Assembly (NCBI RefSeq): GCF_900167535.1
Contig: NZ_FUYE01000003.1
Location: 106,414-170,413 of the forward strand
DNA length: 64,000 bases
Source: Prosthecobacter debontii
Lineage (GTDB): Bacteria > Verrucomicrobiota > Verrucomicrobiia > Verrucomicrobiales > Verrucomicrobiaceae
Reading direction: 5' to 3'
Shown here: piece after piece, positions 40,301 to 60,469 of the stretch
Layout of the letters: each line of letters starts with the position of its first letter
How positions within the stretch are numbered: the first letter of the stretch is position 1
Translations under genes and position numbers: made by a program
Notes under the pieces: generated by a model
Database searches by the model: none
What the model was told of the DNA's origin: nothing
Seen by the model: only the letters and a program-made list of their open reading frames with translations

Positions 40301-40725
40301 AACCTGACGGCATGCTGGAGGGACTTCTCCGCCGCGTTCCATTCGCTCATGTCGGCACCGAGGTCTATAATGCCTATGGCGAACGCACCCCAGCTTGGGA
40401 CATCTTTTCCATGTTCCCTTCCTCTCCCACCTTCTCCAAGGAAGCGGAGCGCGCTGCTCGTCTGAATGTTGAAACAGGCACTCGACGTAGCGCACCCAAA
40501 GACATCTCGCTGCATTACACCGATGGCAGCGTGCGAGAACTGAAGCCCAATGAACTGGAGCAATACCAACGCCTCTCCGGCCAGCTCTACACTGAGAGCC
40601 TCCTACGCAACGAAACGGACATCCGCCGAGCCTACCAACAAGGCGGCCAAGGCGCGGCTTCCAAGATCGTGGACAACATCAGTGCGAAGGCGAATCGAGA
40701 AGCGAAAAAGCAGCTCGGATATTAG
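34333..40725 (+). CDS. Giant internal virion/ejection (polyvalent) protein with zinc-peptidase motif
   Basis: The 2130-aa product is the largest here. The first 300 residues are Gly/Ala-rich and hydrophobic (GAVGQAGSMFATAGIGGAIG), as in membrane-inserting ejection proteins. A region around residue 670 has HELTHALKE (H670-E-L-T-H674), a zinc-metallopeptidase HExxH set in a helix. Residues about 1010-1110 and 1230-1285 are coiled coil. The C-terminal part (residues about 1450-2130) holds a large-polyvalent-protein-like helical domain with a hydrophobic stretch (MTGALMALALSMADD). Such proteins enter the host with DNA. The gene ends 90 bp before the att site. Confidence 0.75.
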   Translation: MADWSDFPVVPSSGWDAFPIVAPADTGQGYVSSLVNSAGRGFARVAADIPGGLGYLTGSDDLVQWGDDIEAGINEALPVNPIYQDDFAMKAAGAVGQAGSMFATAGIGGAIGKGLGAVRVGAEVAGLGSGFLAGARGGGQEAEQYGLEGAAAYGRVLAGGTIELATEKLLFGMGTETRAVQSMLGETIESGWGRFFKDVATEGGEEGIAEISNNAATALLAPSGTQTPGLFEGGLEASLLGMVGGGVFGGVNALAGSGQAEAPVTVESGTIPFSAAPGAQALVPGPTARTEIAGQPFYFDGLQWNKLTDPTKVSASPELEPPFVPLNPANPIEGTLIVELENRRKAAMRQGQIQTPGETSEGTPSPPRGTPAPVETGIPPTSEVDISTDNSGIEASRFLPPPGLAAAGETAKTLRHLPGMEPAAEVAAEDTSVTDPDEAAADAAMDAKVDREDDILNTYSEEDLSTWPLPQAMRDRAQAALDVLEEAGYDLEQLAAAVADPKLNQGVQQAARELMELRKRADARWGVAHEFMKSRSARYILGIDKSVAENQNTDDEPADSTFNSFRFTPVEDGALAEREREVLDRVRRSEGNPAISAAAGSLLDRGREQGTATATWIGALKEVFGKDVLFVHPGKGSRTISFEGASVPGHRNTIVLDATSKSPVLYLTGHELTHALKEQHPELWKKLRDELLAMASDWSDYRGRLRKRYQEDQIEDEFLGDVVGGQFRERAFWEKLEQRNPSLFRRLASAALQFLNRILGKVGGLSRDVRGYFADIEAARDVIADVLEQYAAARRFPDRTLIESDDADLATVDAVKKPSSPMELTSMRMSEASQAMRKMLKPHKASRDERTVDGNPIEEAGYLVRRDADMEAAADQWLDSFAESQALQSRSHTETRALLNEILDDIDVDVAAILLTRLIDGRGREFGYDTAEVQALGQKNASRAGFALLEWKKTLDPLDKLVDQAAAKTGATMGKELGLDTPKEGDPADVPAQLNQQLQQEMQAEAEKALRESLDQMRAQLSDVQRQMASDKQAKAEEIQSLHEQADKLRDELARATDELERAEREATIGEVDSQITELQNQLEATQRDLASSRESTAIFQKVLDLLSKAGSKRKAILSKARKLSDSIIEDALARKRQRRESGMLFSNPLPEFADDVAIGAGIMLKGIVEFAAWTKAMADTIGEITSGSLDSIYLESSRKYSEEMERFAGEEPAPKPSKERVRKEPGEVDPYDAIGKLREQVLSLRKKLAEVEESLGEEKARADQEREVGIAIGYEEGLAQGRAEQPPAPPREIDLFENWLMGERIEGLPSVDTVARRFIQPQRWDGERFRSALGQLFPALDQNILDDAVDRITEQMNNRLAAARRRAISAFTDRLAERNSRLKNDQRFVTFYGHLQKAAEYGILDSQVFADSFASAWSLNGLTPATVLQLRQMYQQITATNANGQPMHFGMVRETMERRFIEAVNRIAPGQAWLNFIFNNYQARVLSSASSILNQFSSVFRILAPVDAISRAYRMGQGTNPSTILAEYWAGVSSLGRNLPLMMTAIRGESLGHLASQVASGHVPTEQQTQHLQPGEAVRVGNTRLGPRLSWLARMAEMWTWRTIRAAEGLTGVADAEAHFRETLTNHYRAQGMTPVAAREQALRDIHASGSEVTAARQQALQEQSIGSIGAGNTVIERRIAEIIQRNIENRLNAPLVARTEQLTGYAQFKTMPTGPIGFAVSQMMASIASPASKAGQVARFWFLFGRFLGHTVDVTLGYTPGAHLLTRSTGDSGSQRNKLIREVFGSEEAYRQMVDSRAVTGSTFFLMTGALMALALSMADDDDEPFFAVTGSGGIGDPSRKDALKATGQWGEMQIRIGGRPVISYGQIPELSPLLSILGNISDHARFGHFLNQRQARDGEQPGKYPADLSTLGLGFGFDWALSPIKRSTYRSWFDALDGMMSIQSAGSADYAGQQLLGLVTRPVDGMLRVPMVVDVDKALRFAEGSLKPDGMLEGLLRRVPFAHVGTEVYNAYGERTPAWDIFSMFPSSPTFSKEAERAARLNVETGTRRSAPKDISLHYTDGSVRELKPNELEQYQRLSGQLYTESLLRNETDIRRAYQQGGQGAASKIVDNISAKANREAKKQLGY

Positions 40726-40731
40726 GTTGCC

Positions 40732-40755
40732 AAAGTGGCTACAAAAGTGGCTACA
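40732..40755 (+). repeat. Perfect 12-bp tandem repeat next to the att site
   Basis: AAAGTGGCTACA occurs twice head to tail (40732-40743 and 40744-40755), starting 6 bp after the giant gene's stop. It is preceded by TTGCCAAAGT (40727-40736), which also occurs upstream of 18-mer copy 1. It lies 60 bp from the tRNA fragment and might be integrase or excisionase arm sites. Confidence 0.6.
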
Positions 40756-40815
40756 TTTTCTATTCACCATCGCAATTCATTCATTATCAATGGACTTTAA
40801 ATCCAAGACAGATGC

Positions 40816-40860
40816 TTTGTAATCATCAGGTCGTCGGTTCAAATCCGACACTCGGCTCCA
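40816..40860 (+). other. Right attachment site: 3' fragment of tRNA-Thr(UGU)
   Basis: The sequence from TTTGTAA (anticodon UGU at 40818-40820) runs through the variable loop AGGTC, the T arm GTCGG-TTCAAAT-CCGAC and the acceptor strand ACTCGGC to T-CCA at 40860. It is a bacterial tRNA-Thr 3' half with no D arm or 5' acceptor upstream. The anticodon stem has a C-T mismatch (40815/40823) just where host identity would end. This is the classical scar of integration into a tRNA gene; the intact copy should lie left of the window. Confidence 0.85.
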
Positions 40861-40863
40861 TTG

Positions 40864-40888
40864 AAAATCAATGGATTACGTTGATTTT
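40864..40888 (+). terminator. AT-stem hairpin just past the tRNA fragment
   Basis: AAAATCAA (40864-40871) and TTGATTTT (40881-40888) form a perfect 8-bp stem with a 9-nt loop, beginning 3 nt after the tRNA CCA. It is likely the original tRNA transcription terminator, or an att-flanking element. From 40889 to 41151 I see no gene. Confidence 0.5.
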
Positions 40889-41151
40889 AGGCGTCAAAAA
40901 TTTCCTGCGACTGTGCAAAATCTGTGCATTTTGACGGGTGATCCCTCCCTGAACGCAGCCCGCGCGTGTTCCCCTGAGCAGGAAAATTTTCAAAACATGT
41001 CGAGAGTTTGGCGTTCCGACATTTGAGGTAAGCTTTATCTCGCTGACCGGATCTCCACATCCATCCAAATCATGATATTGCCCTAGTCAGCGAGAGTCCG
41101 TGGTGAGGCAGTCAGGGGCGCGAGTACAGTGTGCACGGGGTGATTTTCTTT

Positions 41152-41373
41152 TCACATTAACTCCTTTAGATTGATTTTCAAACCATCGCAGATTTTCAAA
41201 AGCACCCATAGCGTGGGTCGGGCTTCATTTCTCTCCAGATTGGGAATTGTGTTTCGGCTGATTTTGATTTCCCTGGCGAGTTGGGCCGCTGAAATTCCCT
41301 GTCGTTCTCTTTCAGCCTTCAATGCCAGGACAATAGCGCGTTCACGAGGATCAATTTGAGATGGGTTTTCCAT
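41152..41373 (-). CDS. XRE-family transcriptional regulator
   Basis: The 73-aa product is a stand-alone HTH: REQAIVLALKAE-type start (ERAIVLALKAERERQ), then ISAAQLAREIKISRNTIPNLERNEARPTLWVLLKICDGL, the classic XRE layout with the second helix AQLAREI and recognition helix NTIPNLERN. It is divergent to the GYF-domain gene and may control it. Its codon use is AT-richer than the prophage. Confidence 0.88.
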   Translation of the reverse strand: MENPSQIDPRERAIVLALKAERERQGISAAQLAREIKISRNTIPNLERNEARPTLWVLLKICDGLKINLKELM

Positions 41374-41451
41374 CTCCTCACAAATCCCGCGTTGACGGCA
41401 CTAGCACGCCCATTAAAATGGGCAATTCCATCTGGGGCAGAATTAAAAATT

Positions 41452-42780
41452 ATGATGCAATACCATATCTTCAAGGACGGTCAGCAGGTAGGACCATTTG
41501 CTGAAAATGAAGTTACCGCAGGCGTACGCTCAGGTCGATTCGATCCAAACGATTTGGTATGGACAGAAGGGTTCACTGATTGGCTGAAGCTTAGTGCCGT
41601 CTTTCCATCTTTGCTGATCTCCGGAAATAATATTCCCCCTGTTCCACCATCAGGAAAGCCTGCGGTTGAATCAAAGTCAGAGGAAAAGTTCGGTTGTACA
41701 CATATTCTCGGACTGATATTAGCAGTAATTTTCGGACTAGTGATCCTGGGGGCTATGTTTGGAGATTCTGATTCTTCAAAAACTAAAGAACCTTTAACAA
41801 AGGAACAAAAAGCAAATGAAACCAAGAGACAGGCTAATGACGGGAATGCCGTTATTGCTAATGCATCTGAAGGGACCACCCTTCAGAAGGAACAGTATGA
41901 ACGTAAGCATCTAGGCAAAAGGTACTTCTTTAAAGGGAATGTGACAGATGTGAAATCAAGCCGAACAATCACTGTCATGCTGGACACCTGGAACCATGCC
42001 AATGTCACATTCCAGTCAGAAGATGTCAGTTCATTTCATGAAAATAAAGTAGTTTATTTCTCAGCAATAATTGAAGAGTTTGGTACAGGTATGCTTGTCA
42101 GGCACGATCTTGGAGAAGCAAGAATGGAAAATATAGACAATCCTGAGGAGGTATCCATGGAAGTAAAAACGCAAGAACCCGTGAATCCTAATATCAAGGG
42201 ACCAGAGATTCTGGATATTCAACTTGGTGACCACATTTTCAAAATCTGCGATGCCTTCAATAAGAAATATAGATCTGAACTACAGGGCGAAGAAATGGAG
42301 ATGCGGAGAGCCCCCGACAATTCTGCCATCATATGCACCACGGCACAGGGGTTGAAGGCGCTTCAGAAGATGGGTGTTCTTCATGGTTTTCAGAACGCAG
42401 TACAGAATTCAAAAGACAAAACAGCGGCCCTTTTGTTTGGAGCACTAGCTGGCGAGGAGGGATTTATTGGAGGTACTATCGAACTAAAAACTTTAAAGGC
42501 CCCCATAATCTATGCTGACAAGGATGGGATCATTAACAAAGTCTTGATTAGTCCTATGGCGGCACAGGTTTTCTTTAAAGCAGGATTAATGTCCAATGAG
42601 GAATTTGCCAGTTTTATGCGTTCCAGGTATGATCTACCTCATTTGGAAAGTGAGCTTGTTGAGGTCAGGGACGGGTTTACTCGCCAGACAAATTTTGAGA
42701 CAAAATACTTTGGTTATTCCCACGGTTATTCCGTCAGTATTGACGAAACGAAAATGTTTGTCATTGAATCAATAAATTAG
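41452..42780 (+). CDS. GYF-domain membrane protein of unknown role
   Basis: Starting at the double ATG at 41452/41455, the 442-aa product has a GYF_2-type domain (residues 1-55, QYHIFKDGQQVGPFAENEV and WTEGFTDWLKLSAVF), a Pro-rich linker, one transmembrane helix (residues about 87-107, THILGLILAVIFGLVILGAMFG) and a long polar C-terminal region. The region at about 160-230 looks like an OB-fold (YFFKGNVTDVKSSRTITVML). The frame upstream to 41356 overlaps the XRE gene and is not used. Confidence 0.7.
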   Translation: MMQYHIFKDGQQVGPFAENEVTAGVRSGRFDPNDLVWTEGFTDWLKLSAVFPSLLISGNNIPPVPPSGKPAVESKSEEKFGCTHILGLILAVIFGLVILGAMFGDSDSSKTKEPLTKEQKANETKRQANDGNAVIANASEGTTLQKEQYERKHLGKRYFFKGNVTDVKSSRTITVMLDTWNHANVTFQSEDVSSFHENKVVYFSAIIEEFGTGMLVRHDLGEARMENIDNPEEVSMEVKTQEPVNPNIKGPEILDIQLGDHIFKICDAFNKKYRSELQGEEMEMRRAPDNSAIICTTAQGLKALQKMGVLHGFQNAVQNSKDKTAALLFGALAGEEGFIGGTIELKTLKAPIIYADKDGIINKVLISPMAAQVFFKAGLMSNEEFASFMRSRYDLPHLESELVEVRDGFTRQTNFETKYFGYSHGYSVSIDETKMFVIESIN

Positions 42781-42895
42781 GCACTTCTAAAGATTGCGAC
42801 AGTCTGCATGTCAATCATATAGATTATCTGGTTTCGGTTGTTCCTTAACTCCGAGGAAATGGCAGATGGAGACTGACACATTACATGCGAAGTTG

Positions 42896-43957
42896 TCACA
42901 GATCATTCCAAGCCCAATCAGTCGGCAACGCAACTTCTGTGTCGATCAGAGAATTTAAGGGACTGAGATCCTTGAGCTTGGCACAGCCGCTTAAATCCAG
43001 CCGTCTGAGCCCCTTATTGGCCGCAAGAGGCGAGATATCTGTGACCTTGTCACAATGCATCAGATTCACGCTCTGCAAGCGTTTAAGGCGAGCGAGCGGA
43101 CAGAGATATCTTAGCACCATGGCTCCAGAAAGATCAAGTACCCGGAGTGATTCCATATCACCGATCTCAGTGATATCAGTCAGAGTTGTCGCCCCCTGAA
43201 GTTTAAGGTCCTCAATTTTTAGAAGTTTGCTCAAGACTTTGAGGTTTCGCAGTGATTTGCACTGCGCCAAGTGAAGCACTGTAAGATTGCTCAGGTAGCG
43301 AAGTGAGTACAGGTCCTCTACACCCTCTGGCAGATTGACAGAGAGATGTGTCAATGACCGTGGTAACAGGGAGGCTGAAAGCTTCTGTACGTTCTTTGCA
43401 ACAAATTCTAAATATTGGAGCTCTGCCAAATGTGAAAGAGCTTCCAACGTCACTGCTGTCAATGGCTCCAGAGCCTGGATCTGAAGCCGTTTAATACGAG
43501 ATGTGGACACGAATCCCTCAAGACCTCTGTAGGCGCACCAGGACACTGCTAAAGGCCCGTCACCGGGTGGCAGAGGACCGGGAGGACAGGCATCGGAACC
43601 GAGGACCGCGACAGGAATGGAATTGACCACTAACACATCCCAGCCGCCATATTTTAGAAATTCAAATGTCCATACGGAATCCCGTTCCCTGACTTCCGAT
43701 GGCAATGGACAGCGAATGCCAAATGCCTGCACCTGAGAGGGGACATCTTCAGGCTTACTCAAAATCAGGGTATCGCCGATGAGCTGAGCATCGTCAGGAA
43801 TGTCTAATAAGAAGCCAATGTCTCGACTTCCATGACCAAGCATCGTCCAGAATAAGGCAGCAGAAAAGTGGAAGTCAGAAAATGGGCAGCGGTCAGAATC
43901 TTTGAGAAACGGCTGTACATTGACAGTTATGGACCGTGGAAATGTCTGAGGCATCAA
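42896..43957 (-). CDS. Leucine-rich-repeat protein
   Basis: The 353-aa product has an unknown N-terminal domain (residues about 1-150) and a run of seven or more LRRs (residues about 160-340), such as SRIKRLQIQALEPL, LAELQYLEFVAKNV, LSNLTVLHLAQCKSL and LKRLQSVNLMHCDKV, ending with GLRRLDLSGCAKLKDLSPL. The repeats follow the LxxLxLxxC cysteine-containing subtype common in Verrucomicrobia and Planctomycetes. No signal peptide is seen. It is monocistronic and divergent to sparse DNA. Confidence 0.8.
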   Translation of the reverse strand: MMPQTFPRSITVNVQPFLKDSDRCPFSDFHFSAALFWTMLGHGSRDIGFLLDIPDDAQLIGDTLILSKPEDVPSQVQAFGIRCPLPSEVRERDSVWTFEFLKYGGWDVLVVNSIPVAVLGSDACPPGPLPPGDGPLAVSWCAYRGLEGFVSTSRIKRLQIQALEPLTAVTLEALSHLAELQYLEFVAKNVQKLSASLLPRSLTHLSVNLPEGVEDLYSLRYLSNLTVLHLAQCKSLRNLKVLSKLLKIEDLKLQGATTLTDITEIGDMESLRVLDLSGAMVLRYLCPLARLKRLQSVNLMHCDKVTDISPLAANKGLRRLDLSGCAKLKDLSPLNSLIDTEVALPTDWAWNDL

Positions 43958-44481
43958 ATGTGTACAAAGAGACTGAAAATGTCCTCTGGTACAGAAATTA
44001 TTAAGATCGACAAGGACGCACCCAGTTTAGTAACTAAATCGAAATCGAAAAAGTTGAAGGAACCCCTCTAAACTGAGGATTTTAGGGGTACATTTTGTAA
44101 CGAAATCAAGTGTTTCTGTGCCAAATAATATGGGAGGAGAGACACTGACGCATACATTCTGTAATCTTCTTTATATCCATAACATTGAAAAATATTATGG
44201 ATATGGATTACATGTACAATTTGGAAACTATTCTATAGTTCTCAAGTTGAGAATATAGGAGTTATTCTTTTTTGGTTTTTTTCGCCCCAGAGGCTTCTAG
44301 TATAATGCATCGAAACGCGATTGTCAATCGCATTTGGTTGGAAAACGGACGCCAATAATTATTCAGAATGAAAATTTCGTCCACCGCTTAACCCTGATGT
44401 TTCAAAGAATTGCTGAATAAGTTTACCAGCATAAACATTCTCATTTGGAATAGTTTGTCATTCTTAGCGGCATTCAATTTT
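43958..44481. other. AT-rich intergenic DNA upstream of the small 44.5 kb gene
   Basis: About 520 bp without a supported gene. One short forward frame (43979-44071, MSSGTEIIKIDKDAPSLVTK start, 30 residues, Lys-rich) precedes an ACCCCT...AGGGGT inverted pair (44063-44096) and could be a tiny peptide gene, but is too short to assert. Confidence 0.4.
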
Positions 44482-44510
44482 TTGATAAAAATGCTTGCAT
44501 ACCATACTAT
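44482..44510 (+). promoter_or_regulatory. Sigma-70-like promoter
   Basis: TTGATA (44482-44487) and TACTAT (44505-44510) are separated by exactly 17 bp. Transcription would start about 44517, giving a leader of about 12 nt to the GTG at 44529. Confidence 0.65.
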
Positions 44511-44528
44511 TTTGGTGTAGATTTCATT

Positions 44529-44765
44529 GTGAATCTAAACAACCAAAATCGACTAGATAGCAATCTAGCTAAACTTAAAACGGCCATAGCAAAGCTGAGT
44601 TCAGACCACCCTTTGCTGAAGGGGCCCGATGGAGCCCTTACAGGACGTAACGGGGCGCTTTACCATCCTACATCAGGATTGTTCATTACCTCCGAAGGAC
44701 AGGTAAAGGACTTGGACAAAATGTCCTTTGAAAGGGGAGTTCAAATGTTGACCTCGAGGCTGTGA
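44529..44765 (+). CDS. Small protein, GTG start, function unknown
   Basis: The 78-aa frame begins at GTG 44529, 18 bp downstream of a good promoter. It is Lys/Ser-rich with a helical start (NLAKLKTAIAKLSSD), a Gly-rich middle (GPDGALTGRNGALYHPTSGLF) and a charged C-terminus. A perfect palindrome follows it. It could be a regulator or partitioning peptide of the adjacent replicon-like unit, which is inference from position. Confidence 0.5.
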   Translation: MNLNNQNRLDSNLAKLKTAIAKLSSDHPLLKGPDGALTGRNGALYHPTSGLFITSEGQVKDLDKMSFERGVQMLTSRL

Positions 44766-44786
44766 GCTTGGAGGCATGTCGCGACA

Positions 44787-44807
44787 GTGATTGATTGAAT
44801 CAATCAC
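44787..44807. repeat. Perfect 21-bp palindrome
   Basis: Arms GTGATTGATT (44787-44796) and AATCAATCAC (44798-44807) flank a single G. It lies 22 bp after the small gene's stop. No T-run follows, so it is more likely a protein-binding or transfer site than a terminator. From 44808 to 45032 there is no gene. Confidence 0.6.
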
Positions 44808-45032
44808 CTCAATGTCAGTACTAACGCAAAGCAGGGGCTGGTAGAATCTGGCTTTAAAAACAAGGCGAGGCATGTTAGAGCCTCTAGTGAGGTCCCTTCT
44901 AAGCCGATGGCTACAAAATCCTTGGACTGAGCCATTTGGTATTTGACGCCTATTCTAGGCATAGACGTGCCTCGCTCTTCCGTTCTGCTAGGCCAAATTT
45001 GCCAGAACATGGTGAGTTAGCAATCAATCAAC

Positions 45033-45126
45033 GTCGCCGAGGGTGTAACATATTGCTTTAATACATTAATAATTTTCGGCGACCCACCACACCCTAATAT
45101 ATATATATATCAATTTTAATTAATTA
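45033..45126. repeat. Interlocked inverted repeats and AT tract before the polymerase-like gene
   Basis: GTCGCCGA (45033-45040) pairs with TCGGCGAC (45076-45083), and the adjoining GGGTGT (45041-45046) pairs with ACACCC (45089-45094). The a-b-a'-b' order would make an RNA pseudoknot or a cruciform pair. A run of alternating AT and AATTAATT follows (45095-45126). Such a region could be a regulatory RNA leader or a DNA-unwinding origin. Confidence 0.55.
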
Positions 45127-45209
45127 CAGTCCTCATCAATAGATACAATCAGGAGATCTGGACATCTTTCCCCACCCACCAATGGACGGGGCGCAAAATT
45201 CAATTTCAA

Positions 45210-46502
45210 ATGAAACAACCAAAATACGTACAATCTCAATTTGTTCTAACTCGAGGCGCTTATTCTAAGATCTCCAATATCGACAGGCTGCTCGCACTGC
45301 TTATCCATAAGCTTCGTAAACAACTCTCCAACCGAAGAAATAAATTCCAGAATAAAACTGCAAACCAGTTTGTGGATTATCGGTTTACTTCTCTCAGTGC
45401 CAAGAGAGACCTCACGGTGGTATTGGGAAAGAAGTATAGAGAAATAATTCTTGAGGCAGAGGCCCTAGGACTAATCAACATATTTCGCAGTAAAGAAAAC
45501 GTTGAATCTTATTCACAGCGCAAGAAGGCATCTTTCAGTAAAAAGTACACAGTCAATGACGAAATTTGGAATCAAATAAAGAATAGAGAATTTATAACAA
45601 TATGCCTTCATATCCCAAATCCAGCTCTGACACACAAGTATGGTTCTCACAAATCAAACGGTAAGGTAAAAAATAAATTTCTTATAATCAAAAACAATTT
45701 GGACCAGCTCATTATTGCCGACGAAGTATTTAGTGACCCCGACTTTGACTACCTCGAATCAAATTCTTATGTTCGCTCTTTTTTTACCAAGAAGCATCTG
45801 ATCTCAGACGGCGATCCAGATGCGATGGACGAAGAGAAGACAGGTAGAATATATCACGATGTCATATGCATGAAAAAGGCGTTGAGAAAATATATTCGTC
45901 ATGTCGGTGGCAAACCTCTACTCATTATTGATGCTTCAGCCATGAATCCAATTCTTTTGGCTAGTGAAATTGAAGATTGGAAAGAGAGGTATCGCTGGTT
46001 AAAAATATGCATGTCGGGTAATTTTTATACAGATCTTGTCGGAGTGGATAAGATTGAGAAAAATGAATGGAAAACCCCATTTATGGAGGCTATGTCGAGT
46101 AAGGACTTAAAACACAATGAAAAGGTCCAGCAGATTCGTACAGTGATTCAGAGAGACTTTCCATCTCTTCACGCAGCCCTGCAAAAGATTCATAAAAGTG
46201 GGATGACGGTGGCCAGGAAACTAGGAAAAATCGAAACCAAAATCTTTAGATCTACTTTTAAGACTGAAAACCGTTTTCACGTGTCTATGCATGACGGGCT
46301 ATTAATCTCAAAAGAGGATCTTGTTTACTTCAATGATGCCATCCAAGATGCAGCTAAAATAATTATTGGCTATCCTCTCTTACTGAAAGTCGAGACTCTC
46401 GCAGGCGATGTCATTGGTGAAGGTGCTAAAATCCATGCACGGACTATTTGTGTAAACGAAGGTTATGACACGTCGATGACATTAAAACAAATAGCAGCCT
46501 AG
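45210..46502 (+). CDS. Possible divergent single-subunit polymerase-like protein
   Basis: The 430-aa protein has an N-terminal helical region with a Lys/Arg-rich patch (about residues 30-60) and ALGLINIFRS, like a winged helix. C-terminal segments resemble the palm of family-A DNA polymerases and T7-type RNA polymerases: LLIIDASAMNPILLAS (motif A-like, D241), KNEWKTPFMEAM (motif B-like, K284/K288/M292 at the R-xxx-K-xxx-M spacing) and SMHDGLLISKEDL (motif C-like, H361-D362). The two Asp are 121 residues apart, shorter than in known enzymes, so it may be minimal or inactive. Preceded by an AT-rich repeat region and followed by an AlpA-like gene. No other family recognised. Confidence 0.45.
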   Translation: MKQPKYVQSQFVLTRGAYSKISNIDRLLALLIHKLRKQLSNRRNKFQNKTANQFVDYRFTSLSAKRDLTVVLGKKYREIILEAEALGLINIFRSKENVESYSQRKKASFSKKYTVNDEIWNQIKNREFITICLHIPNPALTHKYGSHKSNGKVKNKFLIIKNNLDQLIIADEVFSDPDFDYLESNSYVRSFFTKKHLISDGDPDAMDEEKTGRIYHDVICMKKALRKYIRHVGGKPLLIIDASAMNPILLASEIEDWKERYRWLKICMSGNFYTDLVGVDKIEKNEWKTPFMEAMSSKDLKHNEKVQQIRTVIQRDFPSLHAALQKIHKSGMTVARKLGKIETKIFRSTFKTENRFHVSMHDGLLISKEDLVYFNDAIQDAAKIIIGYPLLLKVETLAGDVIGEGAKIHARTICVNEGYDTSMTLKQIAA

Positions 46503-46530
46503 TGAGATTGGCGCATGGACAGGGGCAGTT

Positions 46531-46760
46531 TTATTCGGCCTCCAGAAATCGCCGAAACTCTCCGGTGTTTTTCAACGACTAGGCGTCGCGATCATTATTG
46601 AAGTAGGCCCATGTCCGCTTGGCATCGCTGAGGCGGCTGCGACCCACCCATGTCTGAAATTCGCATCGGTATCGTCATGCGGGTACCATCAGCGGTGCCG
46701 TGGAGTCGGATATAAATTTGGTCCGTGGTTTGATCTGCTTATCCGGCACGCCCTGCCTCG
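46531..46760 (-). pseudogene. Broken DUF72-family gene remnant
   Basis: Reading leftward, fragments read DQIYIRLHGTADGTR in one frame, then QTWVGRSRLSDAKRTWAYFNNDRDA, a stop (46579-46581), then SLKNTGEFRRFLEAE and a normal stop (46531-46533) in another. These match the end of DUF72 (YecE-like) proteins (FVRLHG..., YFNND..., NA..L). A frameshift and an in-frame stop show it is dead. The rest of 46,503-47,061 shows no gene. Confidence 0.7.
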
Positions 46761-47061
46761 TTTGAGGCTGTCGAGCATGGGATGCGCCGCACCGCCATGC
46801 GGTATGATAAAACCGATGTTTCTTCATGGCTTTTGACCTGTTCGGTATCTGCATTTCATCCCTCAGAAACTAATCTTGAAACATGCCCTAGAGAATCTGA
46901 GATCAACCTTCATCTGGTTTTATAAAGTCAGACGCTCAAAAAAATTTGGCCAATATTCATTTCATATTTTTTCTACAGTACGCACAAGATCCGATTGTTC
47001 CATTAGCGGTCTATTGAAATGTCGGCACAAAGATGCTTTTTTATTAACTGAAAATTAACTC

Positions 47062-47090
47062 TTGAATGGCAATGCCGGTGGAGTTATCTT
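47062..47090 (+). promoter_or_regulatory. Sigma-70-like promoter of the AlpA-like gene
   Basis: TTGAAT (47062-47067), 17 bp, then TATCTT (47085-47090). The ATG is at 47102, so the transcript would be nearly leaderless, like the unit at 44.5 kb. Confidence 0.6.
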
Positions 47091-47101
47091 AATTAGTTAG
47101 T

Positions 47102-47314
47102 ATGATTTCAGTAAAACCAAACAACAAAATTCAAAATGACATAGAGGCACCTTTATTATCTAGAAAAGACGTCTGCCGTATCATGTGTGTATCAAATATG
47201 ACGGTCAAACGGCTACAAGGCCGTGGTCTCTTGACACCTATTTATTTCGGCCCAAGACTTATTCGCTACCGGCCCGAGAATGTTAACAACTTAATTAGTA
47301 ATTCAGCCGCTTAG
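47102..47314 (+). CDS. AlpA/HTH_17-type DNA-binding protein
   Basis: The 70-aa product has the MerR-like excisionase pattern APLLSRKDVCRIMCVSNMTVKRLQGRGLLTPIYFGPRLIRYRPENVNNLI: helix-turn-helix (KDVCRIMCVSNMTVKRL) followed by the wing-like FGPRLIRYRPENV. Such proteins act as excisionases or small regulators of integrated elements. It lies 600 bp after the polymerase-like gene, with the dead DUF72 fragment between. Confidence 0.8.
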   Translation: MISVKPNNKIQNDIEAPLLSRKDVCRIMCVSNMTVKRLQGRGLLTPIYFGPRLIRYRPENVNNLISNSAA

Positions 47315-47844
47315 CGCGTGTCACATGTCTAACAGTAAACATTGCCCCGGATTGTTGGTAAACAATCGTATCGACTGACATAACGCATTAATTATCGTGA
47401 ACTAACAGCTTCAACATTCCGAATCCGGATGTGTACTGTTTCGACTGGGATGACTTTTAAAATTGGTTCTGCAAGATAAAAGCTTCACTCGAATCGGGGC
47501 GAATGCCGTAAGGGAGGTATCGCTTTTGTCGTCGTGTAGTCATCTGAGCTCTCAACACGGCGCTTGATCTTGTGAAGATCCTAGTCTGGACGAGCCAGTT
47601 CACGAGCACTGTACAGACACACTATTCCCGCAACTATCTATGTTGGCCCAATAGGCTGATCAAGAGATTATTCGTATTTCCAGTGCTTGGGCCAGGTGGA
47701 ACCCAAGTTTCCTGCAATATGGGTGTCGGCGGGGAGACCGTGCCAGCAACATCGTTGGCCTCGTGATTTTCCCGTACACTGCTTGGGACAACCTTGGTCG
47801 GGGGAAGGAATGGCGGTGTGGCGATATTAAAATTACAACATTGA
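47315..47844. other. Intergenic DNA between the island and the arsenic operon
   Basis: About 530 bp without a supported gene. It contains a perfect 7-bp hairpin, GATTGTT-GGTA-AACAATC (47350-47367), lacking a T-run. A forward frame at 47572-47766 is Pro/Thr/Val-rich with no domain signal and is not called. This region may hold the junction between the AT-rich island and the arsenic cluster. Confidence 0.5.
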
Positions 47845-47866
47845 CGTAACTGGAAAATACGTTACG
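47845..47866. promoter_or_regulatory. arsR: Candidate ArsR operator/promoter
   Basis: CGTAAC (47845-47850) and GTTACG (47861-47866) form a 6-bp inverted repeat spaced by 10 bp, overlapping TTGACG (47841-47846), a good -35. The ArsR start follows at 47879. The site fits autorepression of the ars operon, released by As(III). Confidence 0.65.
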
Positions 47867-47878
47867 ACTGTTTTCGTC

Positions 47879-48295
47879 ATGAAAAATATCGTTGCATTCG
47901 CCCATGCTCTTGCCGACGAGACCCGTTGGAGGATCGTTCAGTTGATTTTCAGTGAACCTATGTGTGTTTGCGAGCTCGCAGACATTCTGGACATGCCTCA
48001 GTCGTCGGTGTCGAGTCATGTCCAGGTCATTAAAAAATCGGGAATGCTGGACAGTGAGAAATGCGAGAAGTGGATCTATTACCGGCTGTCACCAAACCAT
48101 CGTCATCTCCTGACCACGATGGTTGAGTTTTTTGAGGAGTCGCCAGCAGGAGACGCTGTTCTGAAAGCAGATGCTGAGCAGGCAGTGAAGAGACTTGCCG
48201 AGCGGGATGAGAGCTGTTGTCCGATTCCGAAGGGGCTCAAGAAATTGAATCCGCTAATCCCAAAACCTAAAAGCAAAACCAAAGGAGCCAAATAA
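47879..48295 (+). CDS. arsR: ArsR-family arsenite-responsive repressor
   Basis: The 138-aa product is a winged-helix repressor. The As(III) site C29-V-C31 ELAD lies in the usual position at the start of the recognition region, with PQSSVSSHVQVIKKSGML as the DNA-reading helix and C62 nearby. The C-terminal extension beyond about residue 115 is Lys/Pro-rich and atypical. The stop overlaps the next start (TAATG), so the operon is coupled. Confidence 0.93.
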   Translation: MKNIVAFAHALADETRWRIVQLIFSEPMCVCELADILDMPQSSVSSHVQVIKKSGMLDSEKCEKWIYYRLSPNHRHLLTTMVEFFEESPAGDAVLKADAEQAVKRLAERDESCCPIPKGLKKLNPLIPKPKSKTKGAK

Positions 48296-48759
48296 TGAAC
48301 CTGAATGAATTTAAAGCACTGCTGAAAAACGAAGGTGAGAAGCATTTCAGAATTCAGCTTCCAGACGGTTCACCTGTTCCGCTTTCCTTCCATGTGACTG
48401 AAGTTGGGAAGGTGCAGAAGACCTTCATTGATTGCGGCGGGACAATGCGTGAGAACGTGGTTTGCCAGTTGCAGATCTGGGTGGGCGAAGATGTGGATCA
48501 CCGCATTGAGGCAGGCAAGGCGGCTGCCATTCTTGAGAAAGCCCGGTCATTCCTTCCTGATGAGAGCGTACCTGTTGAGGTTGAGTATGAGGACAGAGTC
48601 ATCTCCCAATACACGATTGAAGATGTGACGATGGATGAAAGCTCTGTGACGCTGAAACTCGCGCACAAGCACACTCAGTGTCTGGCCCCGGAACTTTGCG
48701 TGGTTCCCCCAAAAACCCAGGAATCAAACTGCCGCACGCCAAAGAGCGGCTGCTGCTAG
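48295..48759 (+). CDS. DUF6428-family protein of the arsenic operon
   Basis: The 154-aa product opens MNLNEFKALLKNEGEKHFRIQLPDGSPVPLSFHVTEVGKVQKTFIDCGG, the DUF6428 pattern seen in arsenic operons, and ends with a Cys-rich tail (C142-C154 region: CVVPPKTQESNCRTPKSGCC). Function is unknown; its constant pairing with arsR/acr3 suggests a metalloid-related role, and the Cys tail may bind As(III). An AAGGAG Shine-Dalgarno precedes the start. Confidence 0.8.
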   Translation: MNLNEFKALLKNEGEKHFRIQLPDGSPVPLSFHVTEVGKVQKTFIDCGGTMRENVVCQLQIWVGEDVDHRIEAGKAAAILEKARSFLPDESVPVEVEYEDRVISQYTIEDVTMDESSVTLKLAHKHTQCLAPELCVVPPKTQESNCRTPKSGCC

Positions 48760-48768
48760 GAGTTTTTT

Positions 48769-49818
48769 ATGACTAAAGATGTCGCACGGAAGATGTCCTT
48801 TGTGGACCGCTACCTGACGGTGTGGATTTTTGCTGCAATGGCCGTTGGGGTCATTCTCGGCAATTACGTGATCAGTGATCCAGCTGATTTCTTTGCACCC
48901 CTGACGGTTGGGACTACAAATCTCCCGATTGCGGTTGGGCTGATCCTGATGATGTATCCGCCATTGGCGAAGGTCCGTTATCGGGAGCTTCCCAAGCTGT
49001 TTTCCAACACGCGAATACTGACGCTTTCACTGGTCCAGAACTGGATCATCGGCCCGCTGTTGATGTGGGTGCTCGCGATTATCTTCCTCCGCGATTATCC
49101 TGAATACATGGTCGGGTTGATTCTGGTTGGCATTGCCCGGTGCATTGCAATGGTCCTGGTGTGGAATGAGCTGGCCAAGGGCAGTAACGAATATGCTGCT
49201 GGGCTTGTGGCGTTGAATAGCATCGCTCAGGTCCTGCTGTATGGGGCATATGCTTGGTTGTTCATCACCGTTCTGCCTGGTTATGTCGGTCTTGAGGGGG
49301 TAGTGGTGGATGTCAAAATGGCGGAGATTTTTTGGAGTGTCGCCATTTACTTGGGGATTCCGTTCTTCGCAGGGGCACTCAGCAGGGTGGTTTTGGTGCC
49401 TTGGAAAGGTGAGGAGTGGTATGAGAAGAAGTTCCTGCCGAAGATCTCGCCAATCACATTGGTTGCGCTGCTGTTCACGATTGCCGTGATGTTCACGTAC
49501 AAGGGCACGGCGCTTGTTGAGCTTCCGCTGGATGTGCTCCGCATTGCGATCCCTCTGGTCCTCTATTTTGGGATAATGTTTCTGGTGAGCTTTGTCATGG
49601 CAGCCAAACTTGGGGCTGATTATCCTCGCTCAACGAGCATTGCGTTCACCTCTGCTGGCAATAATTTTGAACTGGCCATTGCGGTAGCTATTGCCGTATT
49701 CGGCCTGCACTCAGGTGTTGCGTTTGCGGCTGTGGTTGGGCCTCTGATTGAGGTTCCAGCATTGATCGGACTGGTGCATGTCGCTTTCTGGCTGCGCTCA
49801 AGATTTTTCAAAGTCTAA
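48769..49818 (+). CDS. acr3: ACR3-family arsenite efflux permease
   Basis: The 349-aa membrane protein has about ten transmembrane helices and the ACR3 hallmark [21 protein letters not shown] (C125 essential in the family), then [18 protein letters not shown], and the C-terminal [43 protein letters not shown]. It exports As(OH)3/arsenite from the cytoplasm. It follows the DUF6428 gene and precedes arsC in one operon. Confidence 0.95.
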
Positions 49819-49829
49819 CAGGATATAAT

Positions 49830-50273
49830 ATGACACAAAAGCCCCTCATTCTGATTCTCTGCACAGGCAACAGCTGCCGCTCTCATTTGGCCGAAGGCAT
49901 CCTGAGAACTGCTCTCGGTGATTCACATCGTATTGAAAGTGCCGGATCGAAGCCGACTGGCTATGTACATCCGCTTGCAATCAAAGCTCTTTCCGAAATC
50001 GGGATTGATATCTCGGGCAATCGTTCCAAGCACCTGGATGAGTTCCTCCGTCAGGATGTTGAAACGGTCATTACCGTCTGCGGGAACGCCGATCAGGTGT
50101 GTCCGATGTTTCCAGGGCAGGTAAACCGTCACCATTTCCCTTTCGATGATCCTGCGCATGCGACCGGGTCTGAGAATGAACAGTTTGTCGTATTCCAGCG
50201 GGTGAGGGATGAAATCCGTGCCGTGTTTGGTGCCTATGCCGCTGGACGGCTAGACGAGGCGAAGGCGGGATAG
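49830..50273 (+). CDS. arsC: Thioredoxin-type arsenate reductase
   Basis: The 147-aa product has the LMW-phosphatase P-loop C11-TGNSC16-RS and the redox Cys pair C84/C91 ([11 protein letters not shown]), with DDP (D105-D106) as acid. This is the S. aureus-type ArsC that reduces arsenate with thioredoxin, giving arsenite for Acr3. The start follows the acr3 stop by 11 nt. The operon ends here; 50274-50374 has no clear terminator. Confidence 0.93.
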
Positions 50274-50374: not shown

Positions 50375-53300
50375 CTACAAGGTTTTCATCACATTGGGTT
50401 TATCATGGAACTCACGTCCTCTTAGCCAGAGAAAGATGACAGGAGTGACAATAAGAATGTGAATGAGGCTGGAGATCATGCCGCCGATGACGGGCGTGGC
50501 GAGGGGTTGCATGACTTCAGATCCTTGACGGTGGCTCCACATGATCGGCAGCAGGGAGGCGACAATGGTGGCGACGGTCATCACTTTTGGGCGCAAACGC
50601 AAGCGTGCGCCGTCCTTCACAGCCTGCACAAGGTCACTATAAGCGAAAGCGGCTCCAAGTTGCGCCATGCGGGCTTTCACGGTCTCCTCCAGATACACAA
50701 CCATGACGACACCGGTCTGTACAGCGGTGCCAAAGAGGGCGATGTAACCGACCCAGACAGCTCCATTGAAATTGTAACCGAGCAGCTTTTGCAGTAACAC
50801 GCCACCACTCAAAGCGAAGGGCACGGCGAGCATGACATGCGCGGCCTCCAGTGCGCTGTGATAGACGATGTAGAGCAGCACGAAGATGATAAGCAGCACA
50901 ATGGGAAAGACGACTTGCATCGTCTGTACGAAACGGCGCTGATTTTCATACTCGCCGGTCATTTTGTAAGTCATGCCTTCCCAGTTGATGGCCTTGAGCT
51001 TCTGCTCGACCTCCTGAACGAAGCCGCCAAGGTCTCGGTCTTGCACGTTGGCTTGAACGTAGGAACGGAGGCGTCCGTTCTCACTGGCAATCTCATTGGC
51101 ACCGACTTCACGGGTGATCTTCGCCACCATGCCAAGCGGGATATAAGTGATGGGTGTGTTTCCTGCGCTCAATGCCATACTTGCGGGTGGCGCGGGCGCA
51201 GCGCTACTGGTCATGCCTCCGCCACTTCCCTGCGGATCGGCACCGGATGCACTCATGCCCTGACGTGCAGCGACAAGGATGCTGCTGAGCTTCTCGATGT
51301 CGTCACGCTCGCCTCGCTGCACCCGGATCTGAATGGGAAAGCGCTGCCGACCTTCGATGGTGGTGCTGACGTTCTTGCCGCCAATGGCAATCTCCACGGC
51401 ATCAAGCACATCCTTGGCACTGAGGCCATAGCGGGCCATCGCTTGACGATCCACCTGGATATTGAGGTAGGGCTTCCCCTGCACTCGTGAAGGCGATACT
51501 CCGGCGGCCCCTTCGATGCTGTTGATAAGTTTTTCGATCTCGAAGGCTTTGCGCTGGATCTTGTCGAGGTTGTCACCATAGATCTTCACGCCGACCTGCG
51601 CTCGAATGCCAGTGTAGAGCATGAGGATGCGGTTCTCGATGGGTTGCAGGAAGGCTGGCACATAGCCAGGCACTTGCTTCATCTTTTCAGTCAGCTCGGC
51701 TTTGAGTTTTTCCACTGTCATGCCTTCACGCCATGCAGGATTGCGTTTCACGCTCCAGCGACCATCGCGGATGTATTCCGGCTTGAGCATGATCGTCGTT
51801 TCCAGCATCTCGGTGGGCGCGGGATCGGTTGCGGTTTCAAAGCGTCCCAACTTGCCCGCGACAGACTCGACTTCGGGCGTGGCAGCGATGACGGCATCCT
51901 GCCAGGACATGACGCGCTGGATCTCTTTGAGACCGGTCTTTGGCATCATCACAGGCATGTAGAGCAGGCTGCCTTCATTGAGCGGAGGCATAAATTCTTT
52001 GCCAAAACCCGTGACGATTTCACTGAGGCGCGGATAGCCTGCATCGCGGATGCTCTTCACCGTGGCGCGTGGCAGGCCAAAAGCGGTGAGCAGAGCCACC
52101 GCGAGGATGCACATGGCTGCCGTGATGACCGTTTTCCGATGATTGAGCGCCCAGTTGAGCGTTGGCTCATACAAACGGAGCAGGAACTTCATCACGATGT
52201 TGCTTTCCTCTGAATGAAATGGCCCGCGCACCAGCAGCGAGCACAGCACCGGCACCAGAGTCACCGCGAGCAGAGTGGAGCCGATCATGGCAAAAGTCTT
52301 GGTGAAGGCCAGCGGATGAAACAGTTTCCCCTCCTGACCGCTGAGCGCAAATACCGGCACAAAAGCGAGGATAATGATCGCCATGGCGAAGAAGATGGGC
52401 CTGCCGACCTGTGTGCAAGCAACGAGCGTGATATCCCAGGTTTCTTTGGAGTTTAGCCGCCCGCCTTTTTTGTGCTCAGCTTCCTCACAGTGTCGAATAA
52501 CGTTCTCAGTGACGACGATGGCCGCATCCACCAGCACACCGATGGCGATGGCGATGCCAGTGAGCGACATAATGTTGCTGGTAATGCCAAACTCCTTCAT
52601 CAGCAGGAAAGAGATCAAGATCGAGATCGGCAAGGGCAGCGTAACAATGAGAATGCTGCGGAAGTGCCAGAGAAAAATGATGTGTGCGAACGTGACGAGA
52701 ATGAACTCCTCCAGTAGTGCGTGCTTGAGTGTGCCAATGGTGTTGTCGATCAGCTCACTGCGATCATAGAAGGGCTTGATGGTGACACCAGGTGGCAGGC
52801 TGGACGCGATCTGTGCGATCTTTTCCTTGATGCGCTCGATGACGGCTTTGGCGTTTTCACCGGTGCGCATGACCACGGTGCCGCCCACGGCCTCATGTCC
52901 GTTTAAGTCGAGCGCACCGCGTCTAAAGTCGCCACCGATCTGCACGGTGGCGATGTCCTTCAAGTAAATGGGCGTGCCCCCCATCGCCTTCACGGTGACG
53001 AGTTCCAGGTCTTCGACACTTGTGACGAGGCCGATGCCACGCAACACAAACTCGGCCCCATTTTCTTCCACTACCTTGCCGCCGACATTGAGGTTCGCAT
53101 TCTGCACCGCCGTCATCACATCCATCAGTGTGATGTTCGACATGCGCATCTTGGTAGAGTTCAGTTCGACCTGATACTGCTTCACAAAACCGCCGATGCT
53201 CGCCACCTCTGCCACGCCTTGCACACTGGCGAGTTGGTAGCGCACATACCAATCTTGCAGCGAACGAAGCTCCGCGAGATCATAGCCACCGTCCTTTGCT

Positions 53301-53749
53301 TTGGAGGCATCAACATCGAAGTAGTACTGATATACCCAGCCCAGGCCGGAGGCATCAGGGCCAAGCTGTGGCTTCACACCTTCGGGCATGGAGCCTTGCA
53401 AGTAGTTCAGTCGCTCCAACACTCGCGCTCGTGCAAAGTAAGTGTCCACCTTGTCCTCGAAGATGATGGTGATGAGCGAGAAGCCGAACATCGAAGTTGC
53501 ACGCACCTCTTTGACCCCCGCCAGACCTTGCAGTCCGGTGGACAGCGGGAAAGTCACCTGATCCTCGACCTCCTGTGGGCTGCGGCCCATCCACTCGCCA
53601 TAGACGAGCACCTGGTTCTCCGTGAGATCGGGAATCGCATCGACAGGCGTGAGGTAAATGGCCCGCACGCCCAGCGCGATGAGCAGCAACGCAGCACAAG
53701 CGACCAGGAAGCGGTTTTTCAGGCTCCAATGAATGATGGCCTCAATCAT
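50375..53749 (-). CDS. cusA: CusA/CzcA-type heavy-metal RND efflux pump
   Basis: The 1124-aa protein has RND features: N-terminal LKNRFLVACAALLLIALGVRAIYL helix, VDAIPDLTENQVLVYGEWMGRSPQEVEDQVTFPLS, TM4 GVLVDAAIVVTENVIRH with the proton-relay Asp, and 12 predicted transmembrane segments. The monovalent-metal (Cu/Ag) or Czc class is set by motif details I cannot score exactly, but the neighbouring copper genes favour CusA. It takes periplasmic ions with CusB and CusC to the outside. It overlaps the cusB end (ATGA-like). Confidence 0.9.
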   Translation of the reverse strand: MIEAIIHWSLKNRFLVACAALLLIALGVRAIYLTPVDAIPDLTENQVLVYGEWMGRSPQEVEDQVTFPLSTGLQGLAGVKEVRATSMFGFSLITIIFEDKVDTYFARARVLERLNYLQGSMPEGVKPQLGPDASGLGWVYQYYFDVDASKAKDGGYDLAELRSLQDWYVRYQLASVQGVAEVASIGGFVKQYQVELNSTKMRMSNITLMDVMTAVQNANLNVGGKVVEENGAEFVLRGIGLVTSVEDLELVTVKAMGGTPIYLKDIATVQIGGDFRRGALDLNGHEAVGGTVVMRTGENAKAVIERIKEKIAQIASSLPPGVTIKPFYDRSELIDNTIGTLKHALLEEFILVTFAHIIFLWHFRSILIVTLPLPISILISFLLMKEFGITSNIMSLTGIAIAIGVLVDAAIVVTENVIRHCEEAEHKKGGRLNSKETWDITLVACTQVGRPIFFAMAIIILAFVPVFALSGQEGKLFHPLAFTKTFAMIGSTLLAVTLVPVLCSLLVRGPFHSEESNIVMKFLLRLYEPTLNWALNHRKTVITAAMCILAVALLTAFGLPRATVKSIRDAGYPRLSEIVTGFGKEFMPPLNEGSLLYMPVMMPKTGLKEIQRVMSWQDAVIAATPEVESVAGKLGRFETATDPAPTEMLETTIMLKPEYIRDGRWSVKRNPAWREGMTVEKLKAELTEKMKQVPGYVPAFLQPIENRILMLYTGIRAQVGVKIYGDNLDKIQRKAFEIEKLINSIEGAAGVSPSRVQGKPYLNIQVDRQAMARYGLSAKDVLDAVEIAIGGKNVSTTIEGRQRFPIQIRVQRGERDDIEKLSSILVAARQGMSASGADPQGSGGGMTSSAAPAPPASMALSAGNTPITYIPLGMVAKITREVGANEIASENGRLRSYVQANVQDRDLGGFVQEVEQKLKAINWEGMTYKMTGEYENQRRFVQTMQVVFPIVLLIIFVLLYIVYHSALEAAHVMLAVPFALSGGVLLQKLLGYNFNGAVWVGYIALFGTAVQTGVVMVVYLEETVKARMAQLGAAFAYSDLVQAVKDGARLRLRPKVMTVATIVASLLPIMWSHRQGSEVMQPLATPVIGGMISSLIHILIVTPVIFLWLRGREFHDKPNVMKTL

Positions 53750-55452: not shown

Positions 55453-55456
55453 GGCG

Positions 55457-56725: not shown

Positions 56726-56807
56726 TGAGTCCTCGTGGAAAAAGCTTCGTTTCGGGGTCGTGCCGCGCGGGAAACGAGCACAATTCTCCTGTTGAAACGA
56801 GGCTTCG

Positions 56808-59532: not shown

Positions 59533-59570
59533 GATTGGCTGGCAGTGGATGGAGGTAAGTTACAATGACG

Positions 59571-59604: not shown

Positions 59605-59624
59605 GGTGAGCATGGAGCCGACCT

Positions 59625-60424: not shown

Positions 60425-60469
60425 TTGAAAACAGCCTGTGCTGGAACACGGCGGCAGACCATGGGGTGT

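Follow-up and report, generated by a model that had tools for sequence, protein, structure and literature searches.

A probable stand-alone family-A mini DNA polymerase of the TV-Pol kind in a tRNA-Thr island of Prosthecobacter debontii

Results

The open reading frame, its motifs and its relatives

The gene studied here is an open reading frame (ORF) encoding a protein of 430 residues at positions 45210-46502 of a 64,000-nt stretch of the Prosthecobacter debontii chromosome (the window; overall G+C 54.9%). It lies in a 36.5-kb island between 45-bp repeats of the 3' end of tRNA-Thr (TGT), extending from 40816 to C3:183764, with an AT-rich leader before it and an AlpA-like gene after it (Table 1). 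A sequence-only reading of this DNA had proposed a small relative of the single-subunit polymerases lacking an exonuclease, with motifs at D241, K284/K288/M292 and H361-D362. The ORF and these residues were confirmed, and the alignments and predicted structure described below indicate that the protein is probably a stand-alone mini DNA polymerase of family A, of the kind known as TV-Pol. Genomes are denoted by G numbers (G000 is the source genome, the others are comparison genomes), extracted stretches by L numbers, and contigs of the source genome by C3 and C5.

The window protein was compared directly with several databases. A Pfam scan revealed no domain at E <= 1, searches of NCBIfam and of PDB sequences gave no match, the best PHROGs match was at chance level (E 0.063), and protein searches of viral contigs, genome contigs and phages gave no match. 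The only plasmid match, from Acetoanaerobium (30%, residues 9-178, E 0.08), was dropped because the ORF concerned looks on reading like a sensor kinase gene. When 56 genomes were searched in six frames, the protein was recovered from the source genome and from G018 of the same genus (94% identical); among 384 genomes of the class, six further ones had matches of 23-29%. The motif order was common to all sequences of a nine-row alignment, in which R213, R226, D241, L250, P318, E342, H361 and D362 were invariant. The profile of these nine rows matched 18 of the 384 class genomes, source genome counted, and 8 of 387 genomes sampled from the phylum, four of which were already known. Iteration of the profile gathered 22 ORFs among the 2787 ORFs of the extracted stretches. 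A related profile gave 110 relatives in viral contigs, 80 of which were used, and 22 in genome contigs (Verrucomicrobiota, Bacteroidota, Planctomycetota, Ignavibacteriota and one Rhizobium metagenome-assembled genome); at these viral and genome-contig loci 104 of 1111 ORFs scored E <= 1e-3, and 61 of the 104 were kept after removal of relatives more than 75% identical or of unusual length.

For the first nine relatives, Pfam and NCBIfam gave weak scattered matches to single members (best E 0.088 and 0.0089). PHROG 4756, whose function is unknown, was matched by two later relatives (E 3.5e-9 and 3.3e-10), and Rep_1 by one, under its cut-off (E 0.008). No relative was found when viral contigs were queried with L007 and L010. 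A PF00476 (DNA_pol_A) search of the source genome detected PolA at C5:188115-189254 alone, leaving the mini polymerase unmatched.

Residue conservation was counted in an alignment of 81 rows, which includes the window protein itself and leaves out L128, L129 and a duplicate window row. D241, K288 and D362 were present without exception (81/81), and R213 (80 rows), E342 (80), H361 (78), P247 (78) and R226 (77) were near-invariant. The sequence-only reading had allowed that the motifs might be chance; this does not hold, because they are conserved across the 81 aligned relatives. Position 284 is Arg in 56 rows and Lys in 20, the Lys of the window and G018 proteins being common to 18 other rows. 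Column 246, which corresponds to the Glu of PolA DYSQIE, contains Q in 69 rows, H in 5, N, F and M in 2 each, Y in 1 and E in none of the 81. After motif B the window protein has S296 and S297, as against F at 296 in 60 rows and G at 297 in 49, and at position 271, the guessed counterpart of the conserved fingers Asp of TV-Pols, it has N (D in 13 of the 81).

Comparison with the G018 orthologue gave a dN of 0.026 and a dS of 0.151 by NG86 (ratio 0.17), and 0.030 and 0.102 by YN00 (ratio 0.29); the polymerase gene is under purifying selection. A degenerate, inactive relative, an option also raised by the sequence-only reading, would account for the exchange of Q339 for Gly (Gln in 77 of the 81 rows, Gly solely in the window and G018 proteins), for Lys in place of Arg at 284 and for the missing FG after motif B. 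Degeneracy is nevertheless unsupported and very unlikely, because of the dN/dS of 0.17-0.29 and the intact catalytic residues, both catalytic Asp residues together with K288, R213 and E342 being retained.

Relation to family-A DNA polymerases

The alignments were compared by hhalign with 29 PolA-type proteins of the phylum. The 77-row core gave a score of 23.6 (P 0.031) and the full-length 81-row alignment 25.4 (P 0.042), compared to a maximum of 15.2 over 40 column-shuffled cores and 13.8 for the reversed profile. The alignment path placed motif A on DYSQIELR, KxxxK on RxxxK and HD on HD. The PolA element TGRLSS..NLQNIPxR....EIR, found by search pattern in 9 of the 29 PolA-type rows and not in the PolA of the source genome, has a likeness in the window protein (TGRIYHDVICMKKALR); the two TGRs were paired by eye because the hhalign path starts downstream of the TGR. 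R213 would stand in this PolA-like TGR context, at a place where DSSP assigned no beta-hairpin in the model.

The structure of the protein was predicted by AlphaFold using 61 relatives, giving a mean local confidence (pLDDT) of 73.6 and a predicted TM-score (pTM) of 0.71, with pLDDT of 81-97 in every ten-residue block of residues 221-400. When the model was searched against the PDB with Foldseek, the best 50 of 435 rows were all family-A DNA polymerases, with a best E of 5.5e-5 and 11 of the 435 rows at E <= 0.001. Superposition by VIA-align gave a Z of 14.1 for Pol theta (root-mean-square deviation 3.1 Å over 239 aligned residues), 13.5 for apPOL and 12.3-13.2 for Taq, Bst, Klenow and T7 DNA polymerase. 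These matches span residues 137-418, and the 50 entries listed of 998 chains were all family-A DNA polymerases. A structure search of viral models was headed by a 409-residue protein (E 7e-11); the replication protein of the Zamilon virophage came at rank 25 (E 9e-4).

DSSP placed D241 of the model in a strand (237-242) and H361-D362 between two strands (357-359 and 363-367), a predicted arrangement as in the polymerase palm. Helices were assigned before the palm at 138-146, 151-164, 171-175, 179-183 and 186-194, with block pLDDT of 50-89. A palm/fingers fold of family A is well supported by prediction. The N-terminal region, modelled separately (pLDDT 65, pTM 0.49), gave a best Foldseek E of 1.5 and VIA-align Z values of at most 5.2; several of the VIA-align rows were winged-helix proteins by title, a weak hint that this region may contain a winged helix.

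The Glu of PolA DYSQIE, which we take to be the sugar gate, is absent from all 81 rows at column 246. This would suit a transcriptase that resembles T7 RNA polymerase and serves the island genes, but the structure matches listed by Foldseek (best 50 of 435) and VIA-align (50 entries of 998 chains) are DNA polymerases, a consensus promoter scan found 14 sites compared to 9.0 in shuffles with no sign of special promoters, and T7 RNA polymerase is about twice the size of the 430-residue protein, making such a function highly improbable. A relaxed sugar choice of the mini polymerase is only a guess.

Sister islands and exchange of the polymerase

Two further genomes contained a sister island. The island of G018 has the same 45-bp repeats, an integrase 95% and a polymerase 94% identical to those of the source genome; it is without the arsenic block, and its AlpA region is about 200 bp from the RND operon. 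In G033 the ends of the island are kept, the integrase is 92% identical, and the left 4 kb (40809-44800) and the AlpA region have 87% and 79% DNA identity. Between these conserved parts lies a different TV-Pol ORF (L053:9542-11056), which joined the profile only in round two (E 6e-28). In a quick tree with long branches, built from 54 of the 81 rows after about two of three viral rows had been removed, it grouped with the polymerase of L111 (G007) with a support of 100. Forcing the window, G018 and G033 polymerases into one clade cost 62 log units and was rejected (approximately unbiased test, p 0.003). One TV-Pol has been replaced by another in the slot that leader and alpA enclose; all three islands have a TV-Pol there, though not always the same one. 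The G033 polymerase frame (L053:9288-11059) is broken near its start (ORFs 9288-9647 and 9542-11056), by decay, sequencing error or a programmed shift.

Homologues of the AlpA-like protein were found at seven places in six of 48 genus genomes. Those of G000, G018, G033 and G007 (45-100% identity) follow a TV-Pol, with two distinct polymerase types among them, and upstream of the G013 homologue (48%) the contig ends. At the two places in G028 the visible upstream side is without a TV-Pol, and the other side is cut off. A search for a clean empty site was unsuccessful, the right flanks being different in G000, G018 and G033.

Compact elements elsewhere

Besides the window, G018 and G033, a tyrosine integrase was present in 11 of 19 TV-Pol stretches, ten by the integrase profile (L128 weakly) and L126 by Pfam. 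The integrase of L111 was detected by the integrase profile (E 3e-44) and not recognised by Pfam. A partial tRNA copy of 43-58 bp was found in four of nine tRNA-bearing stretches tested, revealing compact tRNA elements of 6-11 kb with integrase and TV-Pol in four other genomes (Table 1). L126 contains the integrase, an HTH_17 protein, the TV-Pol, a 211-residue unknown protein and small ORFs, and L111 an integrase, a TV-Pol and an AlpA-like protein together with proteins that are unknown or of the surface type. Neither a helicase nor a capsid domain was seen in the scanned genes of the compact elements, among which are none of the small ORFs and none of the L124 genes.

This distribution bears on the possibility that the polymerase is cargo with another job, such as repair or anti-phage defence, and not the replication gene of the island. 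The island does bear Lamassu and metal genes, and there are integrase islands that have no TV-Pol. PADLOC left the polymerase unmatched at E <= 0.01, however, four of the five AlpA homologues of at least 45% identity in the genus follow a TV-Pol (the fifth, in G013, is at a contig end), and L126, at 6.3 kb, holds little beyond integrase, HTH_17 protein and TV-Pol. A cargo role is unlikely.

Terminase-like genes were read in L113, which is a prophage; a 122-residue ORF after its TV-Pol (L113:2122-2490) resembles a small phage sigma factor by eye. The TV-Pol ORF of L029 (G082:C22) has an N-terminal extension, giving a 763-residue open frame in which a primase-type domain was seen by eye. Relatives of the mini polymerase with 27-34% identity to a member from Rufibacter were observed in records of huge uncultured phages of 595-735 kb (LR756501, LR756511, LR745206 and three more).

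The tRNA-Thr island

The features of the island and of the polymerase are collected in Table 1. The right repeat is adjoined by a tyrosine integrase of 499 residues (L052:14209-15708; Phage_integrase E 2.6e-9), and the intact tRNA-Thr is located 54 kb leftward of the left repeat (L051:4690-4764). The proposal of an integrative element is supported by the tRNA-Thr repeats and the integrase; that of a plasmid was rejected because the gene lies in a chromosomal island between tRNA repeats with an integrase.

The sequence-only reading had also described an AT-rich region with inverted repeats before the gene and an AlpA-like gene after it, and both were found. The leader has a G+C of 40% and contains eight short hairpins, compared to a mean of 2.3 in 40 shuffles, one of which reached eight. 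Its right part alone (44800-45209) contains none, and the hairpin-rich left part is the part kept in G033; the leader is a candidate origin or promoter region. The AlpA-like ORF matched PHROG 66 (excisionase and transcriptional regulator; E 6e-4), and no Pfam model matched it. A search of 40500-48500 with Rfam gave nothing credible (best E 0.67). Between the polymerase and alpA (46502-46900) an apparent remnant of a GNAT acetyltransferase gene was seen by eye, followed by a repeat of about 115 bp; the repeat (46780-46897) was rejected as part of a TV-Pol module, having copies elsewhere in several genomes of the genus.

Table 1. Position of the polymerase, its motifs and the other features of the island, and tRNA repeats and sizes of compact TV-Pol elements. 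Unprefixed positions are those of the window; HTH, helix-turn-helix.
Feature	Position	Strand	Basis or remark
Probable stand-alone mini family-A (TV-Pol type) polymerase, 430 residues	45210-46502	+	ATG start; ORF, profile, alignment, model
Possible winged helix, N-terminal region, residues ~17-117	45258-45560	+	low confidence
TGR...R element, R213-R226 codons	45846-45887	+	by-eye likeness to the PolA element
Motif A, D241-L250, first catalytic Asp	45930-45959	+	alignment, hhalign
Motif B (fingers), K284-xxx-K288-xxx-M292, KxxxK form of RxxxK	46059-46085	+	alignment, hhalign
G339-E342	46224-46235	+	alignment
Motif C, H361-D362, second catalytic Asp	46290-46295	+	alignment, hhalign
Left island end, 45-bp tRNA-Thr 3' end	40816-40860	+	identical copy C3:183720-183764 (L052:15721-15765), beyond window
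Cro/CI-type HTH regulator, left island end	41152-41373	-	Pfam
GYF_2-domain protein	41356-42780	+	Pfam
Leucine-rich-repeat protein	42896-43957	-	Pfam
AT-rich leader with hairpins	43958-45209	.	candidate origin/promoter region
Small ORF in leader, 78 residues	44529-44765	+	similar ORF in G033
AlpA-like HTH protein (excisionase/activator), 70 residues	47102-47314	+	PHROG 66
Cargo: ArsR, DUF6428, SBF-family transporter, LMWPc	47879-50273	+	arsenite type/arsenate reductase type by reading
Cargo: RND metal efflux operon	50375-56911	-	pump and outer-membrane protein by reading; HlyD_D23/HMBD adaptor by Pfam
Cargo: multicopper oxidase	57268-59532	-	within 57268-62803
Cargo: P-type ATPase with heavy-metal domain	60470-62803	-	within 57268-62803
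Lamassu LmuA, LmuC, LmuB	L052:9902-13600 (C3:177.9-181.6 kb)		PADLOC
Compact element L111 (G007)			tRNA-Leu, 3' half repeat; 11.2 kb
Compact element L121			tRNA-Arg, 3' end repeat; 8.0 kb
Compact element L124			tRNA-Thr, 5' half repeat; 8.9 kb
Compact element L126			tRNA-Val, 5' half repeat; 6.3 kb

The Lamassu genes were identified with E values of 9e-41 (LmuA), 9e-133 (LmuB) and 3e-9 (LmuC). None of the 18 island proteins that were scanned could be recognised as a packaging protein. To the left of the island, in tandem at the same tRNA-Thr, is a prophage-like region of about 54 kb (window 1-40808; C3:92.7-147.2 kb) with terminase-, portal- and capsid-like genes by reading and a 2130-residue protein at 34333-40725; its terminase-like ORF (8422-10233) gave no Pfam match. 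The polymerase was rejected as a prophage gene, the prophage being to the left of the 40816 repeat and the polymerase inside the island.

The Pri-Rep proteins of phage-inducible chromosomal islands (PICIs) and P4-like satellites are of the primase-helicase type. Gram-negative PICIs and P4-like satellites resemble the present island in having an integrase, an AlpA regulator and one replication protein (PMC6092414), from which the island differs in its family-A mini polymerase and its larger size and in that no packaging genes were recognised. The island might be such a satellite, with the TV-Pol in the place of pri-rep and the neighbouring prophage as a possible helper: the set of int, alpA and replication gene is the same, deletion of int, alpA or pri-rep lowers the transfer of EcCICFT073 (PMC6092414), and the prophage-like region shares the tRNA-Thr in tandem. 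The lack of a recognised packaging gene in the 18 scanned proteins, and a size of 36.5 kb with metal-resistance cargo, unlike compact PICIs, make a satellite unlikely.

Discussion

TV-Pols were described in 2008 (PMC2579912), with primase and polymerase activity forecast from their pairing with D5 helicases. Like the window protein they are stand-alone family-A cores of 400-600 residues without a nuclease, carried by mobile elements with integrases, with a catalytic Asp pair, a conserved Arg before motif A and an RxxxK-type fingers motif (PMC2579912). In the window protein the fingers motif has the conservative KxxxK form, and of the genes linked to TV-Pols (integrase, resolvase, transposase or D5 helicase) the island has the integrase beside its right repeat. 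In TV-Pols the conserved Arg is placed on a beta-hairpin and the thumb is a bihelical coiled coil (PMC2579912); ahead of the palm the model of the window protein has the five helices given above. The setting differs from that of the described TV-Pols: no D5 helicase was recognised in the scanned proteins, and the gene is accompanied by tRNA attachment repeats, an AlpA-like partner, and metal and Lamassu cargo. Because TV-Pols were described in 2008, the kind is not undescribed; the sequence-only reading had thought of a possible undescribed replicon. The window protein is nevertheless matched neither by the models of Pfam and NCBIfam nor by sequences in the PDB. The combination of tRNA island, TV-Pol and AlpA was not named in the titles and abstract openings searched, a body of text in which most subscription papers are not represented. 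The protein would work like a TV-Pol and is probably one, in a variant setting of a tRNA island with AlpA and no recognised helicase.

A likely published member is MAP_030 of Microcystis phage Ma-LMM01 (L262:22749-24293), a hypothetical ORF by annotation with transposases as neighbours. The TV-Pol order of motifs was seen in it by eye, and the 2008 paper probably refers to this ORF. It was not recovered by HMMER with the family profile in the first 50 kb of the Ma-LMM01 record. By hhalign over 33 columns it ranked second of 27 ORFs (19.5, compared to 18.9 for the best of 60 shuffles), behind an rIIA-like ORF (22.1).

ColE2-type Rep is a single element-encoded protein that binds the origin and makes the primer, with a fold of the archaeo-eukaryotic primase type. 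It can be compared with the proposed action of the window protein and differs in its polymerase fold. The CCPol-MP and PolA-SSB primases likewise comprise a small family-A polymerase on a chromosomal island with a site-specific recombinase, for which priming was shown or proposed (PMC7581432, PMC10061031). CCPol is counted among the TV-Pols (PMC2579912), and its priming was shown with the partner MP (PMC7581432); the eLife 2020 authors knew of no other biochemically characterised member (PMC7581432). CCPol is described as near to the housekeeping Pol I and acts together with MP and a helicase (PMC7581432, PMC10061031), whereas the window protein is too distant from Pol I for Pfam, with no MP or helicase recognised among the Pfam-scanned genes.

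On balance, we consider it probable that the 430-residue protein, as a mini polymerase of family A that stands alone and is of the TV-Pol kind, is the replication protein of the integrative island. Several observations weigh against this. The hhalign probability of the core against PolA is 1.6%, and with 20-row alignments the score drops to 18-19 (P 0.24-0.28). Searches of PDB sequences with profiles A1 and A4 gave no polymerase and nothing relevant, and the whole-model TM-scores are at most 0.37 in the best 50 of 435 Foldseek rows. Because profile scores, PDB profile searches and TM-scores are weak, the link to family A rests on motif order and predicted core fold. The Gly at column 339 departs from nearly all relatives. 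No helicase, relaxase or single-stranded-DNA-binding protein (SSB) domain was recognised by Pfam in the 18 island proteins, and duplex opening therefore has no indicated route. Both AlpA places of G028 (34-38%) have an integrase match near and no TV-Pol in view upstream, the related integrase of G183 (70%) occupies the same tRNA in an island that has no TV-Pol, and 20 further integrase stretches from the genus (L090-L109, 5.8-19.9 kb) all lack one, so integrase and polymerase are separable. The right flank differs among the three islands.

If the protein is a replication polymerase, it most likely copies the excised circle and is probably the primer-maker too; we infer both the priming and the island replication. 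From the anatomy of the island, the integrase, aided by the AlpA-like protein in the role of excision factor or activator, would recombine the tRNA-Thr repeats and release a circle. The polymerase, made from the gene before alpA, would bind the AT-rich leader, perhaps through the weakly indicated winged-helix N-terminus, and would start and extend DNA there, probably with its own primer, leaving the rest to the host replisome and helicase. The copied circle could then reintegrate into tRNA-Thr, in its own or another cell.

A narrower role, in which the host replisome copies the circle and the protein only makes or lengthens primers at one site as a primer-extender or primase helper, has a substantial chance, if a little less than even. 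The enzyme CCPol of the staphylococcal cassette chromosome (SCC) extends primers alone and primes solely with its partner MP (PMC7581432, PMC10061031), and no partner gene was identified beside the mini polymerase. On the other side, Pfam recognised no partner next to the window gene, though one of the small ORFs may encode an OB-fold partner, and in the compact elements only small or unidentified ORFs lie beside the TV-Pol.

Returning to the mini polymerase as the replication protein, a wider proposal can be made tentatively, with rather less confidence than an even chance would warrant. The islands and compact elements may belong to a Verrucomicrobiota family of tRNA-targeted elements with a core of integrase, AlpA-like excision factor and TV-Pol, forming a helicase-free single-protein replicon. 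Its polymerase, with a DNA-binding N-terminus and without the gate Glu of the Pol I type, would both start and extend; the polymerase would be a cassette open to exchange, flanked by a conserved leader and alpA, and the element may have grown from 6 kb to a 36-kb metal and defence island.

The compact TV-Pol elements, in which no helicase or other replication gene was recognised, make the 2008 primase-polymerase forecast testable on a single protein and a single leader. These elements would show the lower size limit of a replication module and would extend the short list of known primer-making enzymes by one of family A. The exchange in the slot provides two distinct polymerases for one conserved leader, and with them a built-in test of origin recognition.

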